A stretch of DNA of 64,000 nucleotides. Origin: Blastococcus litoris. GTDB lineage: Bacteria; Actinomycetota; Actinomycetes; Mycobacteriales; Geodermatophilaceae. The stretch spans positions 682,001-746,000 of the forward strand of contig NZ_QCZF01000001.1 in assembly GCF_003075095.1 (NCBI RefSeq), given 5' to 3'. The translations under genes and the position numbers were made by a program. This document shows positions 30,340 to 35,709 of this stretch, in pieces (positions within the stretch are counted from its first letter, which is position 1; the number at the start of each line of letters is the position of its first letter). The notes under the pieces were generated by a model. The model searched no databases. It saw only the letters and a list, made by a program, of their open reading frames with translations, and was not told the DNA's origin.

Positions 30340-30723
30340 ATGACCATCTACGCAGTGGCTGTGAGCGCGACCGACCTGCCCCGCGCGCGGGCCTTCTACG
30401 AGCTGCTGGGCTTCCGCTTCCCGGAGGCCGGCGGGGACGACCCGCACCTCGAGGCGGAGGACGGCTCCGGCGTCAAGCTGATGATCGACGACGCGGGATT
30501 CATGACCGACCTGTACGGGGAGGCGCCGCGGCCGGGCACCGTCGCCGGCTTCGCGCTGGTCCAGGAGTCGCCGGCCGGCGTCGACGAGACGGTCGGGCGG
30601 ATCCGGTCGGCCGGCCACGCGGTGGTGAAGGAGCCCTACGACGCCCCGTGGGGGCAGCGCTACGCGACCGTGGCCGACCCGGACGGCTACCGGGTCGACG
30701 TCTTCTGCCCCCTGCCCTCCTGA
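30340..30723 (+). CDS. VOC-family (glyoxalase-like) protein
   Basis: 127-residue vicinal-oxygen-chelate protein: an N-terminal beta strand and helix (VAVSATDLPRARAFYELLGFRF) and a C-terminal repeat with Glu and Asp near the end (YATVADPDGYRVDVF). Family members bind a divalent metal and act as isomerases, dioxygenases or resistance proteins; this one cannot be assigned. ATG 30340 follows the stop of DUF3037 by 38 nt. It ends 27 nt before the convergent pterin dehydratase gene. Confidence 0.85.
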   Translation: MTIYAVAVSATDLPRARAFYELLGFRFPEAGGDDPHLEAEDGSGVKLMIDDAGFMTDLYGEAPRPGTVAGFALVQESPAGVDETVGRIRSAGHAVVKEPYDAPWGQRYATVADPDGYRVDVFCPLPS

Positions 30724-30750
30724 GACGACCGGCCCGCCGGGCCTTGGCCG

Positions 30751-31044
30751 TCAGCCGGGGAGGAGCGCGTCGACCCGCCGGGCGAGCTCGACGTCGAGCT
30801 CGGTCACACCGCCGGCCGAGTGGGTGACGACGGCGATGTGCAGCGTCCGCCAGCGCAGGTCGATGTCGGGGTGGTGGTCCATCTCCTCGGCGACGTCGGC
30901 GATCGACACGATCGCGGCGACGGCGTCGCGGAAGCTCGGCAGCTGCACCGACCGGCGGATGCCGTCGGCGTCCCCGGACCAGTGCGGCAGCCCGCGGAGG
31001 GCAGCGGTGGTCTCGGCGGGGGAGAGGCGCGGTGGACGGGGCAC
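30751..31044 (-). CDS. 4a-hydroxytetrahydrobiopterin dehydratase (PCD-like)
   Basis: 97-residue protein of the pterin-4a-carbinolamine dehydratase family: the active-site block EEMDHHPDIDLRWRTLHIAVVTHSAGG has the characteristic histidines. It regenerates oxidised pterin cofactor; in bacteria without aromatic amino acid hydroxylases it may serve molybdopterin or other pterin pathways. GTG 31044 begins 24 nt after the cysH stop on the same strand, so it may be read with the sulfur operon, though functionally unrelated. Confidence 0.9.
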   Translation of the reverse strand: MPRPPRLSPAETTAALRGLPHWSGDADGIRRSVQLPSFRDAVAAIVSIADVAEEMDHHPDIDLRWRTLHIAVVTHSAGGVTELDVELARRVDALLPG

Positions 31045-31068
31045 CCGTCCATGGTGCCGCTCAGCGGC

Positions 31069-31779
31069 TCAGGTGTGCAGACCGCACTCGATCTTGTTCT
31101 TGCCCGCCCAGCGGCCGGCGCGCGCGTCCTCGCCCGGCGCGACCGGCCGGGTGCAGGGCTCGCACCCGATCGACCCGTAGCCGAGCTCGAACAGGGGGTT
31201 GACCGGCACCTGGTGCTCGGCGATGTAGCCGTCCACGACGTCCTGGGTCCAGGCGGCGATCGGGTTCACCTTGACCATCCCGCGCTTGGCGTCCCAGTCG
31301 ACCAGCCTGGTGCCGGCCCGCGTGGGGGACTCGTCGCGGCGGATGCCCGAGCCCCAGGCCACGTAGCCGGCCAGGGCCTCGGCGAGCGGCTGCACCTTGC
31401 GCAGCGAGCAGCACAGGTCGGGGTCGCGGTCGTGCAGCCGCGGCCCGTGCTCGGCGTCCTGCTCGGCCACCGTCGTCGGCGGGGTGACGTCGACCAGCGT
31501 GATCGGCAGGACCGACGTGATCCAGTCGCGGGTGCCGATCGTCTCGGCGAAGTGGTAGCCGGTGTCGAGGAAGACGACGTCCACCCCGGGGACCGCCCGG
31601 CCGGCCAGATGGGCGAGCAGCCCGTCGGCCATGGACGAGGTGATCGCGAACCCGTCGCCGAAGGTGTCCCCGGCCCACCGGAGGACCGCGAGGGCCTGCT
31701 CCACCGGGTCGGCGATGCCCTCGAACCGCGCGTCGGCCGCGGCGGCCAGTTCCGGCGTGGGCCGGATGGCGATCGTCAC
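31069..31779 (-). CDS. cysH: Adenylylsulfate (APS) reductase
   Basis: 236-residue thioredoxin-dependent reductase that reduces adenylylsulfate to sulfite. The four cysteines of the 4Fe-4S cluster are present (DLCCSLRK and CEPCTR), which marks the APS-specific type, and the catalytic Cys lies in the terminal ECGLHT. GTG 31779 overlaps the stop of the zinc-ribbon gene by 4 nt. It is the last sulfur gene of the operon; sulfite made here is the substrate of the sulfite reductase two genes upstream. Confidence 0.95.
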   Translation of the reverse strand: MTIAIRPTPELAAAADARFEGIADPVEQALAVLRWAGDTFGDGFAITSSMADGLLAHLAGRAVPGVDVVFLDTGYHFAETIGTRDWITSVLPITLVDVTPPTTVAEQDAEHGPRLHDRDPDLCCSLRKVQPLAEALAGYVAWGSGIRRDESPTRAGTRLVDWDAKRGMVKVNPIAAWTQDVVDGYIAEHQVPVNPLFELGYGSIGCEPCTRPVAPGEDARAGRWAGKNKIECGLHT

Positions 31780-31949
31780 TCCGTCACTCCCGTCGCGATC
31801 AGCCGGACCGAGAAGGCCCGGAGGCAGGCACCGCAGCGCCAGCCGTCCGCCGACTCCCCCTCGTAGGGGGTCAGCTCCTCGTCCCCGCAGTACGGGCAGT
31901 GGAACACCGGCAGCTGCCGGCTCCTTCCCGTGCCCGCCTGCTCGCTCAC
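31776..31949 (-). CDS. Zinc-ribbon microprotein between sir and cysH
   Basis: 57-residue protein with two Cys pairs, FHCPYCGDEEL and GWRCGACLRAF, that together form a zinc-ribbon (or metal-binding knuckle). GTG 31949 overlaps the sir stop by 4 nt and its own stop overlaps cysH by 4 nt, so it is fully embedded in the operon. From memory, small Cys-rich proteins occupy the same slot in Streptomyces sulfate-reduction operons; its role there is unknown. It could be an assembly factor for the neighbouring Fe-S enzymes or a regulator. Confidence 0.85.
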   Translation of the reverse strand: MSEQAGTGRSRQLPVFHCPYCGDEELTPYEGESADGWRCGACLRAFSVRLIATGVTE

Positions 31950-33619
31950 AGCAGCCAGTCCTCCTCGGCCCGGGAGACGTAGTGGGCGAACGACTCGCCG
32001 GGCTCGCGCCGCTGCTGGAAGCCGCGCAGCACCCGCTCGCAGTAGTCGGCGGTCTCGGCCTTGGTGACCTTGTGACCGCGGAACTTGCGGCCGAAGGTGG
32101 CTTCCACGCCGAGGTGCCCGCCCAGGTGCACCTGGAAGCCCTCGACCATCTCGCCGTTCGCGTCGCGGACCATCGAGCCCTTGAACCCGATGTCGGCGGT
32201 CTGGAAGCGCGCGCAGCTGTTCGGGCACCCGTTGACGTTGATGCCGATCGGCACGTCGAAGTCGGGCAGGCGCTTCTCCAGCTCCGCGTAGAGGTCCTGC
32301 GCGTGCTGCTTGGTCTCGACGATCGCCAGCTTGCAGAACTCCAGGCCCGTGCAGGCCATCGTGCCGCGGCGGAAGGCGCTGGGCCGCACCTGCAGGTCGT
32401 GGGCGGCGAGGGCCTCGACCAGCCCCTCCACGCGCTCGTCCGGCACGTCGAGGATGACCAGCTTCTGCTGCGTCGTCGTCCTGATCCGGCCCTGCCCGTA
32501 CTCGTCGGCCAGGTCGGCGATCGTGGTCAGCAGCGAGCCGCTGATCCGGCCGGAGCGCAGGGCGAAGCCGACCGCGTTGGCGCCGTCCTTCTGGCGGGCC
32601 ACGCCGACGTGGTCGCGCTGGTCGTGCTTGGCCGGCGCGGGGGCTGGGCCGTCCGGCAGCGCCTCGTGCAGGTACTCGTCCTGCAGCACCTGGCGGAACT
32701 TGTCCGGGCCCCAGTCGGCCATGAGGAACTTGATTCGTGCGCGGTTGCGCTGCCGCCGGTAGCCGTAGTCGCGGAAGACCGAGGTGCAGGCGGCCCACAC
32801 GTCGGTGACCTGGTCGGGCCGGACGAAGACGCCGACCCGCTGGGCGAACATCGGGTTGGTCGACAGGCCGCCGCCGACCCACAGGTCGTAGCCGGCCTCG
32901 CCCGCCTCGTTCACGACACCGACGAAGGAGACGTCGTCGATCTCCGGCTCGGTGCAGTGGTCGACGCAGCCCGACATCGAGGTCTTCCACTTGCGGGGCA
33001 GGTTGCTGAACTCGGGGCTGCCGACGTACTTGGCGACCGTGTCGGCGATGACGCCGGTGGCGTCGATGACCTCGTCCTCGAGGATGCCGGCCAGCGGGCA
33101 GCCGAGCATCACGCGCGGCACGTCGCCGCAGGCCTCGGTGGACGAGAGCCCGACCGACTCCAGGCGCCGCCAGATCTCGGGCACGTCCTCCACCCGGATC
33201 CAGTGGTACTGGACGTTCTGCCGGTCGGTCACGTCGGCGACGTCCCGGCCGAACTCGGTGCTGATGCCGCCGATGACGCGCAGCGCGTCGCTGGTCAGCT
33301 GCCCGCCGTCGATGCGCACGCGCATCATGAAGTACGAGTCCTCGAGCTCCTCCGGCTCCAGGACGGCGGTCTTGCCGCCGGGGATGCCCGGCGCCCGCTG
33401 GGTGTAGAGGCCCATCCAGCGCATGCGGCCGCGGAGGTCACCCGGGTCGATCGAGTCGAAACCGGCCTTCGAGTAGATGTCGAGGATCCGCTGGCGCACC
33501 TCGAGCCCGTCGGAGTCCTTCTTCATCCGCTCGTTGGGGTTGAGCGGCTCCCGGTAGCCCAGGGCCCACTGGCCCTGCCCGCGCTGCGGGCGGTTGCTCG
33601 TGCGGGGAGGAGTGGTCAC
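31946..33619 (-). CDS. sir: Assimilatory sulfite reductase, ferredoxin-type siroheme protein
   Basis: 557-residue siroheme/4Fe-4S enzyme reducing sulfite to sulfide. Cluster ligands are visible as CTGLEFC and NGCPNSC in the C-terminal third. A Tyr-Cys pair of the NirA type may be present (MGLYTQRAP and MLGCPLAG). The sequence is close in plan to the actinobacterial ferredoxin-dependent Sir/NirA; a nitrite reductase is less likely given the flanking cysC and cysH. GTG 33619 begins downstream of a 28-codon leader peptide and a hairpin. The following small zinc-ribbon gene overlaps by 4 nt. Confidence 0.95.
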   Translation of the reverse strand: MTTPPRTSNRPQRGQGQWALGYREPLNPNERMKKDSDGLEVRQRILDIYSKAGFDSIDPGDLRGRMRWMGLYTQRAPGIPGGKTAVLEPEELEDSYFMMRVRIDGGQLTSDALRVIGGISTEFGRDVADVTDRQNVQYHWIRVEDVPEIWRRLESVGLSSTEACGDVPRVMLGCPLAGILEDEVIDATGVIADTVAKYVGSPEFSNLPRKWKTSMSGCVDHCTEPEIDDVSFVGVVNEAGEAGYDLWVGGGLSTNPMFAQRVGVFVRPDQVTDVWAACTSVFRDYGYRRQRNRARIKFLMADWGPDKFRQVLQDEYLHEALPDGPAPAPAKHDQRDHVGVARQKDGANAVGFALRSGRISGSLLTTIADLADEYGQGRIRTTTQQKLVILDVPDERVEGLVEALAAHDLQVRPSAFRRGTMACTGLEFCKLAIVETKQHAQDLYAELEKRLPDFDVPIGINVNGCPNSCARFQTADIGFKGSMVRDANGEMVEGFQVHLGGHLGVEATFGRKFRGHKVTKAETADYCERVLRGFQQRREPGESFAHYVSRAEEDWLL

Positions 33620-33713
33620 GTCGTGCTTCTTCCTGCGCTCACCGGCCCGCGGCGCTCGGCCTGACGGGAGGGGCGCTGCAGATCGGGTGCGCAGGGATGC
33701 GCGGGAACCGTTG

Positions 33714-33800
33714 TCAGCGCTGGACGCGACACGCGGCGCTGGAGACGAGCGCCAGATCGATGTGCAGACGCGCGACGAGCAGGCTGCCGCGGTCGGTCAT
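33714..33800 (-). CDS. Cysteine-type leader peptide (28 residues) upstream of sir
   Basis: A 28-codon reading frame, ATG at 33800 with GGGAGGA 8 nt upstream, TGA at 33714. It carries a pattern typical of actinobacterial leader peptides found in front of sulfur genes: MTDRGSLLVAR, then LHIDLALVSSAACRVQR with one Cys near the end (residue 24). It lies between cysC and sir. Ribosome slowing at the Cys codon when charged tRNA-Cys is scarce would alter folding of the 94-nt spacer, which contains the hairpin GCGCA-TCCC-TGCGC (33689-33702). It was overlooked by ordinary size limits. I am fairly sure it is translated; the mechanism is inferred. Confidence 0.8.
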   Translation of the reverse strand: MTDRGSLLVARLHIDLALVSSAACRVQR

Positions 33801-33842
33801 GGGGGCGATCCTCCCACAACCCGGACCGGACAGGTGTGTGAG

Positions 33843-34379
33843 TCAGCCGACGGGGTCCATGGCGGCCCGGATGCGGGCCACCGACTCCTCGAGCGGCGTC
33901 TGCGACGTGTCGATCGTCAGCTCCGCCCGCGACGGCTCCTCGTACGGGTCGCTGATGCCGGTGAACTGCGGGATCTCCCCGGCCCGGGCCCGGGCGTAGA
34001 GGCCCTTGACGTCGCGCTGCTCGACGACCTCCAGCGGGGTGGAGACGTGGACCAGCAGGAACCGGCCGTGCTCCTCCACCAGCGCGCGGGCCTCCTCGCG
34101 GGCGGCGTCGTACGGGGCGATGGCCGCCACGACGACCGTGCCGCCGTGCTTCACCACCTCACCCGCGACCCACCCGATGCGGCGGATGTTGAGGTCGCGG
34201 TGCTCCTTGGAGAAGTCCAGCTCGCTGGACAGGTGGGTCCGCACGACGTCGCCGTCCAGGACGGTGACCGCCCGCCCCTCCGCCTCGAGCTGGGCGACCA
34301 GCGCATCGGCGATGGTGGACTTGCCCGCGCCGGAGAGGCCGGTGAGGAACACGGTCACGCCGGGCTGCGGTGGGGACAT
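33843..34379 (-). CDS. cysC: Adenylylsulfate kinase
   Basis: 178-residue APS kinase: Walker A GLSGAGKST (residues 14-22), the DGD motif (LDGDVVRTHL), and FSKEHRDLNIRRIG. It makes PAPS from APS and ATP. The co-located reductase is the APS-specific type, so PAPS is not needed for it; CysC may supply PAPS for sulfonation. ATP sulfurylase genes (cysD/cysN) are not in the window. ATG 34379 follows the Rrf2 gene by 27 nt. It ends 42 nt before the leader peptide. Confidence 0.93.
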   Translation of the reverse strand: MSPPQPGVTVFLTGLSGAGKSTIADALVAQLEAEGRAVTVLDGDVVRTHLSSELDFSKEHRDLNIRRIGWVAGEVVKHGGTVVVAAIAPYDAAREEARALVEEHGRFLLVHVSTPLEVVEQRDVKGLYARARAGEIPQFTGISDPYEEPSRAELTIDTSQTPLEESVARIRAAMDPVG

Positions 34380-34406
34380 GGCTGCCAGTGTCCCGGAGCG
34401 GTTCGG

Positions 34407-34880
34407 TCAGGCGCCGGGGGCGTCGCCGAACGAGCGCCAGGCGTCCTCCAGCGCGACCAGCTCGGCGGCGTGCGCGGGCAGCTTCCCGGCGACGACGTCG
34501 GCGAGCGTGACCTCCTCGAGGACCCTGCGGTAGCCCTCGCGGGCGGCCACCCAGACCGAGGCCAGGGTCGCGGCGGCGCCGGGGTACTCGACGTCCTCGG
34601 GGCGCTTGCCGTGCACCTCGGCGAGGAAGCCCTGCTCGACGCGCATCACGCGGGCGATGGAGATCTCCGACGGCGGGAGGGCGAGGCGGTAGCCGCCCTC
34701 GCGGCCGCGCTGGCTGTTGACCAGCCGGGCGTGCTGCAGGTCGCCGAGGATCGTCTGCAGGAAGCGTGCCGGGATGCCCTGGGTCGTGGCGATGCGCTCG
34801 GCGGTCAGCGCCTCGGGGGCCACGGCGGCCAGTTCGAGGGCTGCGCGGACGGCGTAGTCCACGCGGGCGGTGATGCGCAC
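34407..34880 (-). CDS. Rrf2-family transcriptional regulator
   Basis: 157-residue winged-helix regulator: RITARVDYAVRAALELA, AERIATTQGIPARFLQTILGDLQHARLVNSQRGREGGYRLA. There are no Cys residues, so it cannot hold an Fe-S cluster like IscR or NsrR; that makes it resemble CymR, the cysteine-metabolism repressor of Firmicutes. Position directly before cysC-sir-cysH on the same strand agrees. GTG 34880 follows AAGGAG. The divergent NUDIX gene starts 82 nt away, and this gap is the likely operator region. Confidence 0.88.
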   Translation of the reverse strand: MRITARVDYAVRAALELAAVAPEALTAERIATTQGIPARFLQTILGDLQHARLVNSQRGREGGYRLALPPSEISIARVMRVEQGFLAEVHGKRPEDVEYPGAAATLASVWVAAREGYRRVLEEVTLADVVAGKLPAHAAELVALEDAWRSFGDAPGA

Positions 34881-34962
34881 ACTTCTCCTTCTGCCGGGTC
34901 CCGCAGCGTCGCTGCTGCCTGGGCCTGCCGGTCCATCCTGCCGGTTCTGGGAGGCTGGGTCC

Positions 34963-35709
34963 GTGTTCCGGCTGCGTTTCACCACCATGGTGGAGGCGCC
35001 CCTCACCGTCGCCTTCGACGTGGCGCGGGTCCTCGGGCGCCCCTGGGGCACGCCGCTGGAGGAGGTCGTCTCCGTCCGTCCCGAGCGCGACGTGCACGCG
35101 GCGCGACTCGGCCGGGGCTGGGTGACCCATTCCCGGCGGTTCTCCGCCACCGGCGCCGGCACGGTGGTCGACGAGCAGGTGGACTGGGAGACCGGGGCTC
35201 CCGGTCGTCTCGGCGGCCTCGTCGACCGGCTGGTGCTCCGCCGCCGCATCACCCGCGCCATGCAGGCGCACCTCGACGCCTACGCCGCAGCTGCGGCGCG
35301 ACGGGCGCTGGACGTGCTCCAGGTGGTCGGCGCGGCGATCGTGGACGACGGCCGCGTGCTGGTGGCCCGCCGGTCCGGTGGCCCCTACGACGGGTTGTGG
35401 GAGTTCCCGGGCGGCAAGGTCGAGCCGGGGGAGTCGGACCTGTCGGCGCTGGTCCGCGAGTGCGCCGAGGAGCTGGGCGTCGAGATCGTGCCGCAGGCGT
35501 TCGTCGGCGAGGTCCTGCTGGACGGCGTCGTGGGCGGCGGGGAGCCGGGCGCCTCCACCCTGCGGGTGTGGTGGGCCCGGACGACGGGTGCGGAACCGGT
35601 CGCGCACGAGCACGCCGAGATCCGGTGGGTGGGCGCGGACGAGCTGGAGGCCCTCGACTGGATCCCGGCGGACCGCCCCCTCATCCCCGCGGTGAGAGCG
35701 CTCCTGTAG
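34963..35709 (+). CDS. SRPBCC-NUDIX fusion hydrolase
   Basis: 248 residues. The first about 110 form an SRPBCC/START-like domain (FRLRFTTMVEAPLTVAFDVAR). Residues 118-248 form a NUDIX hydrolase with a complete box: G151-x5-E157-x7-R165-E166-x2-E169-E170-x-G172. The second domain is MutT-like (VLQVVGAAIVDDGRVLVARR, YDGLWEFPGGK), so hydrolysis of an oxidised or unusual nucleotide is expected. GTG 34963 has GGGAGG upstream; no stop separates the two parts. The fusion is unusual. Divergent from the Rrf2 gene. Confidence 0.8.
   Translation: MFRLRFTTMVEAPLTVAFDVARVLGRPWGTPLEEVVSVRPERDVHAARLGRGWVTHSRRFSATGAGTVVDEQVDWETGAPGRLGGLVDRLVLRRRITRAMQAHLDAYAAAAARRALDVLQVVGAAIVDDGRVLVARRSGGPYDGLWEFPGGKVEPGESDLSALVRECAEELGVEIVPQAFVGEVLLDGVVGGGEPGASTLRVWWARTTGAEPVAHEHAEIRWVGADELEALDWIPADRPLIPAVRALL

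Follow-up and report, generated by a model that had tools for sequence, protein, structure and literature searches.

Ms4527A and Ms5788A of Mycobacterium, on which Canestrari and colleagues wrote in 2020, are reportedly polycysteine leaderless sORFs. Candidate leader peptides of cys operons are also listed for Mycobacterium, P. acnes, and B. longum, and the sections of that study that deal with them proposed in 2005, from the pyrimidine-rich spacers, that Rho is involved (PMC1262725).

Here, we analyzed a window of 64,000 nt from the genome of Blastococcus litoris (Geodermatophilaceae), in which a 28-codon frame had been predicted between cysC and sir and is indeed present exactly at 33800..33714 on the minus strand. 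Judged from its sequence conservation, this frame is a genuine, conserved leader peptide of the actinobacterial type, and it adds the sir–cysH operon of Geodermatophilaceae to the settings in which actinobacterial cysteine leaders are known. As a leader it is an ordinary member of a known family; the unexpected regularity is the lock of its conserved Cys codon on UGU, a near-invariant synonymous choice made at the presumed sensing codon in genomes that otherwise use UGC.

The Leader Locus and Its Neighboring Genes

The frame lies 94 nt before sir on the same strand with cysH next, which places it just ahead of a sulfur operon (table 1). The original prediction took LLVARLHIDL as the start and AACR as the end of the peptide; both strings are present, but LLVARLHIDL comprises residues 7–16 rather than the start, and three more residues, VQR, come after AACR. 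Upstream of cysC and on the same strand, an Rrf2-family regulator (PF02082) is encoded at 34410-34889 (minus strand), with TIGR00738 as its best NCBIfam model and a CymR score (54 bits) far below the cut-off of 195; it may regulate the sulfur genes as well.

Table 1. Features of the leader locus, in window coordinates
Feature	Position	Strand	Remarks
cysC, adenylyl-sulfate kinase, upstream of the leader	33843..34379	−	PF01583 and TIGR00455 above cut-off
Extended −10-like promoter element, TGTGGGAGGAT	33808..33818	−	−10 hexamer GAGGAT (33808-33813); the leader ATG follows after 7 nt
Leader peptide ORF, MTDRGSLLVARLHIDLALVSSAACRVQR	33714..33800	−	ATG, 28 codons plus TGA
Cys codon (codon 24, the single one), UGU; presumed stall/sensing codon	33729..33731	−	UGU in relatives
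Leader–sir spacer (stop to start codon); presumed expression platform	33620..33713	−	94 nt; C 39, G 30, A 16, T 9
AGGAAG, likely Shine–Dalgarno (SD) of sir	33629..33634	−	sequence
sir, ferredoxin-type nitrite/sulfite reductase family protein; presumed regulated gene	31946..33619	−	GTG start; PF01077, PF03460
cysH, APS/PAPS reductase, after sir	31069..31779	−	PF01507 and NF002537 above cut-off

Distribution and Family Assignment

Using the sir protein as a query, we collected 80 loci, mainly from Geodermatophilaceae (Blastococcus, Geodermatophilus, Modestobacter, Klenkia, and kin), and 30 further loci. The comparison of this slot in related genomes, which had been named as a check, revealed a similar peptide: an HxDL leader precedes sir in 62 of the 80 loci (L011-L071 and L076), all of them of Geodermatophilaceae type, and one candidate leader precedes sir in Nocardiopsis (L084). 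No HxDL frame was found within 700 nt before sir in the remaining 17 of the 80 loci, all non-Geodermatophilaceae (Nocardiopsis, Actinomadura, Glycomyces, and others). The window, these 62 loci, and 9 from the 30-locus set make up a detailed set of 72 distinct sir regions, 71 of Geodermatophilaceae type and one (L118) from another family of the order; all were selected for having a leader, and a count of 72 of 72 does not tell how often one is present.

In profile searches, the window peptide fell short of two family thresholds, with 22 bits for NF042934 (putative leader peptide; cut-off 27) and 20.8 bits for NF042936, the Ms4527A leader family (cut-off 45). Three of six Geodermatophilaceae orthologs exceed the NF042934 cut-off (32.1, 33.2, and 30.1 bits) and three do not (22.8, 24.9, and 23.8 bits), and the cut-off is also passed by three paralogs of the leader from the same genome; together these bear out the predicted match to the actinobacterial leader peptides of sulfur genes, here of the NF042934/Ms4527A type. 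NF042934 matched 10 of 149 genomes phylum-wide and 158 of 246 class-wide at E ≤ 2e-4. The 14 control genomes gave 0 matches in both samplings, and at E ≤ 10, 10 of the 14 had chance matches, none above the cut-off. From the matches listed we took the best 130 loci as a class-wide set and kept 126 leaders, leaving out L133, which had no pattern match, and L129, L152, and L163, which were off-center; inspection of left-out loci found UGU in L152 (which has two leaders) and in L163 as well, and no leader in L129. The 126 leaders reduce to 77 distinct 13-residue cores, 76 of which have UGU; because many of the leaders are closely related, p-values do not come from independent events.

The association with sulfur genes, also part of the original prediction, holds beyond sir: the genome has three more frames of this kind in front of sulfur or redox genes, namely a cysteine dioxygenase gene (PF05995) with a rhodanese gene, a TauE/SafE permease gene, and a DUF4395 gene, and all three have UGU at the aligned Cys. 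The UGU leader before the cysteine dioxygenase and rhodanese genes (L002, 450-1594, minus strand) is odd in that a catabolic gene stands behind a leader presumably induced by starvation, and the cysteine dioxygenase does not fit simple starvation induction. The start of the frame before the DUF4395 gene (L001, 1034-2072) lies close to where a thioredoxin gene ends, and a −10-like TACTCT stands 6 nt before the GTG of the frame.

Conservation of the Peptide

Numbering positions from the conserved Cys codon, we find that R-x-H-[IV]-D-L-x7-C is kept across the 72 sir regions, a set picked for the leader; the invariance of H, D, L, and C is partly by construction because these residues were part of the search patterns, and the HMM used to find leaders favors the conserved core residues. 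The first search pattern did not include Arg −13, Ser −3, or Leu −16. Class-wide, among the matches listed, Arg −13 and Arg −6 are present in 126 of 126 leaders and Leu −16 in 123 of 126; position −6 in Geodermatophilaceae is split between Arg (38) and Leu (34), the latter being the residue of the window peptide. For the 16 codons that precede the Cys codon, dN/dS is 0.28 when read in the frame but 2.78 and 1.32 when the frame is shifted; selection acts on the leader as a peptide. Synonymous codons are free to vary at invariant residues in the 72 regions: four codons are used for the invariant Arg −13, and the invariant Asp −9 is GAC in 47 regions and GAT in 25.

A Cys Codon Locked on UGU

The conserved Cys codon is UGU in all 72 sir regions, compared with a background of 1.3% UGU among the 1091 Cys codons that the sir, cysC, and cysH genes of these loci contain; the other Cys codons of these leaders (17 at −20 and 3 at −4) are UGC. 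Class-wide, among the matches listed, the aligned Cys is UGU in 125 of 126 leaders, including 34 of 34 that have a single Cys, and the one exception (L128) has several adjacent Cys codons. Cys codons elsewhere in the same leaders are UGC in 164 cases and UGU in 41; directly after DL they are UGC in 58 and UGU in 3 (3/61), and the coding background of the class loci is 34 UGU and 309 UGC. The codon comparison found no other invariant leader residue whose codon is fixed to the same degree. In polycysteine leaders (L121, L122, L148, L149, L151, and similar ones) UGU and UGC are mixed along the run with UGU kept at the aligned position, L128 again excepted.

All 47 tRNA matches in the genome were inspected, and they include only one tRNA-Cys, with anticodon GCA; UGU must therefore be decoded by G-U wobble. 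In the portion of the report on alphaproteobacterial cysS leaders that describes their codons, UGC predominates (PMC8632094), so UGU is no general rule of Cys leaders. In the parts of earlier reports covered by a literature search, no description of the UGU lock was found. A rather doubtful reading is that across the class Actinomycetes the leader acts as a dedicated decoder of one wobble codon, not as a simple counter of cysteine codons. If this were true, the fixed UGU, which follows the Asp of the conserved nascent chain by 9 codons and its Arg by 13, would report the efficiency of G-U wobble reading by the single tRNA-Cys(GCA), the charging of tRNA-Cys or a sulfur-dependent tRNA modification (ms2i6A37 is an example of the latter) could be sensed, and UGC at the aligned position would blind the sensor. 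A silent change of UGU to UGC in the leader is predicted to alter control of the sulfur genes.

Predicted Promoter and Operon Setting

A ribosome site GGGAGGA had been assigned to the leader, and this sequence is found at 33815-33809, 8 nt before the ATG, where it overlaps TGTGGGAGGAT. That element belongs to a motif, T[GA]TGnnAnnnT, which in 71 of 72 regions ends 6–7 nt ahead of the start codon (shuffles: mean 0.15, maximum 2 of 300), L118 being the sole region without it. An in-frame start was not found for 2 of the 126 class leaders; a strict TANNNT occurs 6–8 nt before an in-frame start in 67 of the other 124, among the matches listed, versus 5.4 in shuffles. According to the parts of a study of Streptomyces lividans that treat leaderless promoters, the −10 element has A at its second and T at its last position in over 90% and T at its first in 64%, with a mean of 6.3 nt to the start site (PMC8079986), and the promoter layout of the leader agrees with that description. 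SD-like 4-mers precede the leader in 22 of 72 regions (shuffle mean 8, maximum 17), an excess partly due to overlap with the promoter motif. Because GGGAGGA coincides with the conserved −10-like element, a leaderless start of translation appears likelier than SD-led initiation; the assigned sequence stands, its SD role probably does not, and SD pairing may still contribute in some species, that of the window included. A sigma-70 scan of the locus gave no match, using a consensus that does not cover the TGn-extended leaderless promoter type.

From the same leaderless-promoter layout, the leader is predicted to head its own sir–cysH mRNA, which would shift the point of control. The gene directly upstream is cysC in 45 of 72 regions and is not cysC in 27, and sir is followed by cysH in 71 of 72, the remaining region having less than 700 nt of downstream sequence; the leader therefore belongs with sir–cysH. 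This retains the proposed tie to sir–cysH, whereas the description of the leader as internal to an operon becomes doubtful because the leader seems to be served by a promoter of its own and because cysC does not directly precede it in 27 of 72 regions.

The Spacer as a Candidate Expression Platform

Searches for known regulatory elements were negative: there is no intrinsic terminator (G+C-rich hairpin plus U run) in 33500-35000, where the spacer has just 9 T in 94 nt, and no Rfam family model matches at E ≤ 1 in 30500-35500. Leader and spacer together fold no better than shuffles (MFE z −0.02; spacer alone z −1.08), and RNAalifold on 30 of the 72 rows found changes on both sides in only 3 of 24 consensus pairs; in this 30-row alignment GCGCAGGAAGAAG is mostly kept around the sir SD. 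Across the 72 regions sir starts 23 to 149 nt after the leader stop (L017 and L066 are among the loci noted), and an expression platform in the spacer would thus not be of fixed size.

The composition of the spacer is more regular. C exceeds G in 69 of 69 spacers of relatives that are 40 nt or longer, with the last 20 nt excluded. Class-wide, among the matches listed, the 60 nt after the leader stop have C 0.44 and G 0.28 with C above G in 120 of 126; after long frames, used as a control, the values are 0.36 and 0.34 with C above G in 95 of 187. C is above G on average upstream of the promoter too (0.425 vs. 0.352). A C-rich, G-poor spacer, as in a tna-like Rho-dependent attenuator, favors readout by Rho, and this composition weakly supports Rho-dependent termination in the spacer, which we prefer over SD unmasking. 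It is a point against Rho, besides the C excess upstream of the promoter, that a ribosome on the UGU covers the RNA only to about the stop codon and leaves most of the spacer bare.

Proposed Control and Alternative Explanations

We infer the sensing of cysteine, the stall, and the direction of control from the anatomy of the locus and from what parts of earlier reports on the family describe (PMC4633059, PMC9031893, PMC13236596). The TGn-extended −10-like promoter in the gap between cysC and the leader would give an mRNA whose predicted 5′ end is at the ATG or within 1 nt of it, and ribosomes would load on it without a leader sequence. A ribosome would translate R-x-H-[IV]-D-L and about nine codons on reach the lone UGU, which tRNA-Cys GCA would read by wobble. 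With plentiful Cys-tRNA it would pass the UGU, terminate four codons on, and depart, and sir–cysH would presumably stay low; with scarce Cys-tRNA it would be held at the UGU, perhaps aided by the nascent chain, and sir–cysH would be expressed. In the readout we prefer, the held ribosome would relieve Rho-dependent termination in the C-rich, G-poor spacer. One Cys codon, almost always UGU, probably senses cysteine shortage in this arrangement; a single Cys codon alone is a weak sensor. We consider the proposal as a whole, a cis-acting leader peptide of sir–cysH with a leaderless promoter and a stall at UGU that turns sir–cysH on, to be probable.

Translation attenuation as in M. smegmatis, in which leader and spacer RNA would hide the sir SD until a ribosome stalled at Cys exposes it, is possible but not probable here. 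Such hiding is described for homologous mycobacterial leaders in parts of two reports (PMC13236596, PMC9031893), a CCUGCGC:GCGCAGG stem can mask the SD region when the spacer of the window is folded alone, and the predicted accessibility of the SD with a stalled ribosome goes up in 29 of 72 loci and down in 6. SD unmasking as the switch is nevertheless not supported, as the gain in accessibility is the same with dinucleotide-shuffled leaders (0.056 vs. 0.042; 34/70; p 0.48), SD-pairing strength is hardly above that of shuffles (17.3 vs. 16.2; 42/70), and the 30 of 72 rows that were aligned contain little covariation.

The remaining alternatives concern what is read from the leader itself. It is somewhat unlikely that the signal is sensed by the nascent R-x-H-x-D-L chain within the exit tunnel, rather than by the Cys codon alone, in the manner of an arrest peptide, for which TnaC is the comparison system: residues 8–13 positions before the Cys codon are invariant while their codons vary, and the two Arg residues and Leu −16 are kept class-wide, but the HMM favors these very residues, H, D, L, and C were also required by the search patterns, and position −6 is almost evenly Arg and Leu in Geodermatophilaceae. 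Distinctly unlikely is a UGU fixed by pairing of its third base with another part of the RNA instead of by decoding. Nearby codons are biased too (AGC at −3 in 70/72, CGC at +4 in 63/63 Arg codons, and GCG at −7 in 58/62 Ala codons), and the third-base U is predicted to be paired on average (0.61 class-wide, 0.55 in the 72 regions), more often with A than with G; the predicted partner, however, lies at scattered distances on both sides, the following codon is variable, and UGU is fixed across leaders with unrelated flanks. That the frame has no function and owes its conservation to a DNA or RNA element is highly improbable: strong nucleotide conservation at SSAAC and the stop would suit such an element, yet the in-frame dN/dS contrasts with the shifted frames, the promoter motif and the conserved start codon are a fixed distance apart, and homologous peptides precede other genes. 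A cis-acting leader with a stall at UGU remains our preferred reading.

Comparison with Known Leaders

The window peptide shares its core, position, and gene setting with NF042934 (Actinobacteria, cis_reg_atten); it differs in scoring below the cut-off of that family and in having Leu at −6, a position occupied by Arg in every one of the 126 class leaders sampled. Like Ms4527A and Ms5788A of Mycobacterium it is a short frame before sulfur genes with a Cys near the stop, a homologous core, and a leaderless start, the last predicted here; unlike them it has a single Cys codon in place of a Cys run, and SD sequestration is unsupported at this locus. The cys-operon leaders, in the sections of the study that cover them, also have no visible terminator, but they have runs of Cys codons and belong to another genus and operon (PMC1262725). 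A further comparison is uORFC-8-2, the Cys leader of alphaproteobacterial cysS, which in the part of its description that bears on this likewise works by attenuation at Cys codons; there, two tandem Cys codons, mostly UGC, are combined with an intrinsic terminator, whereas the leader of the window has one UGU and no terminator (PMC8632094).
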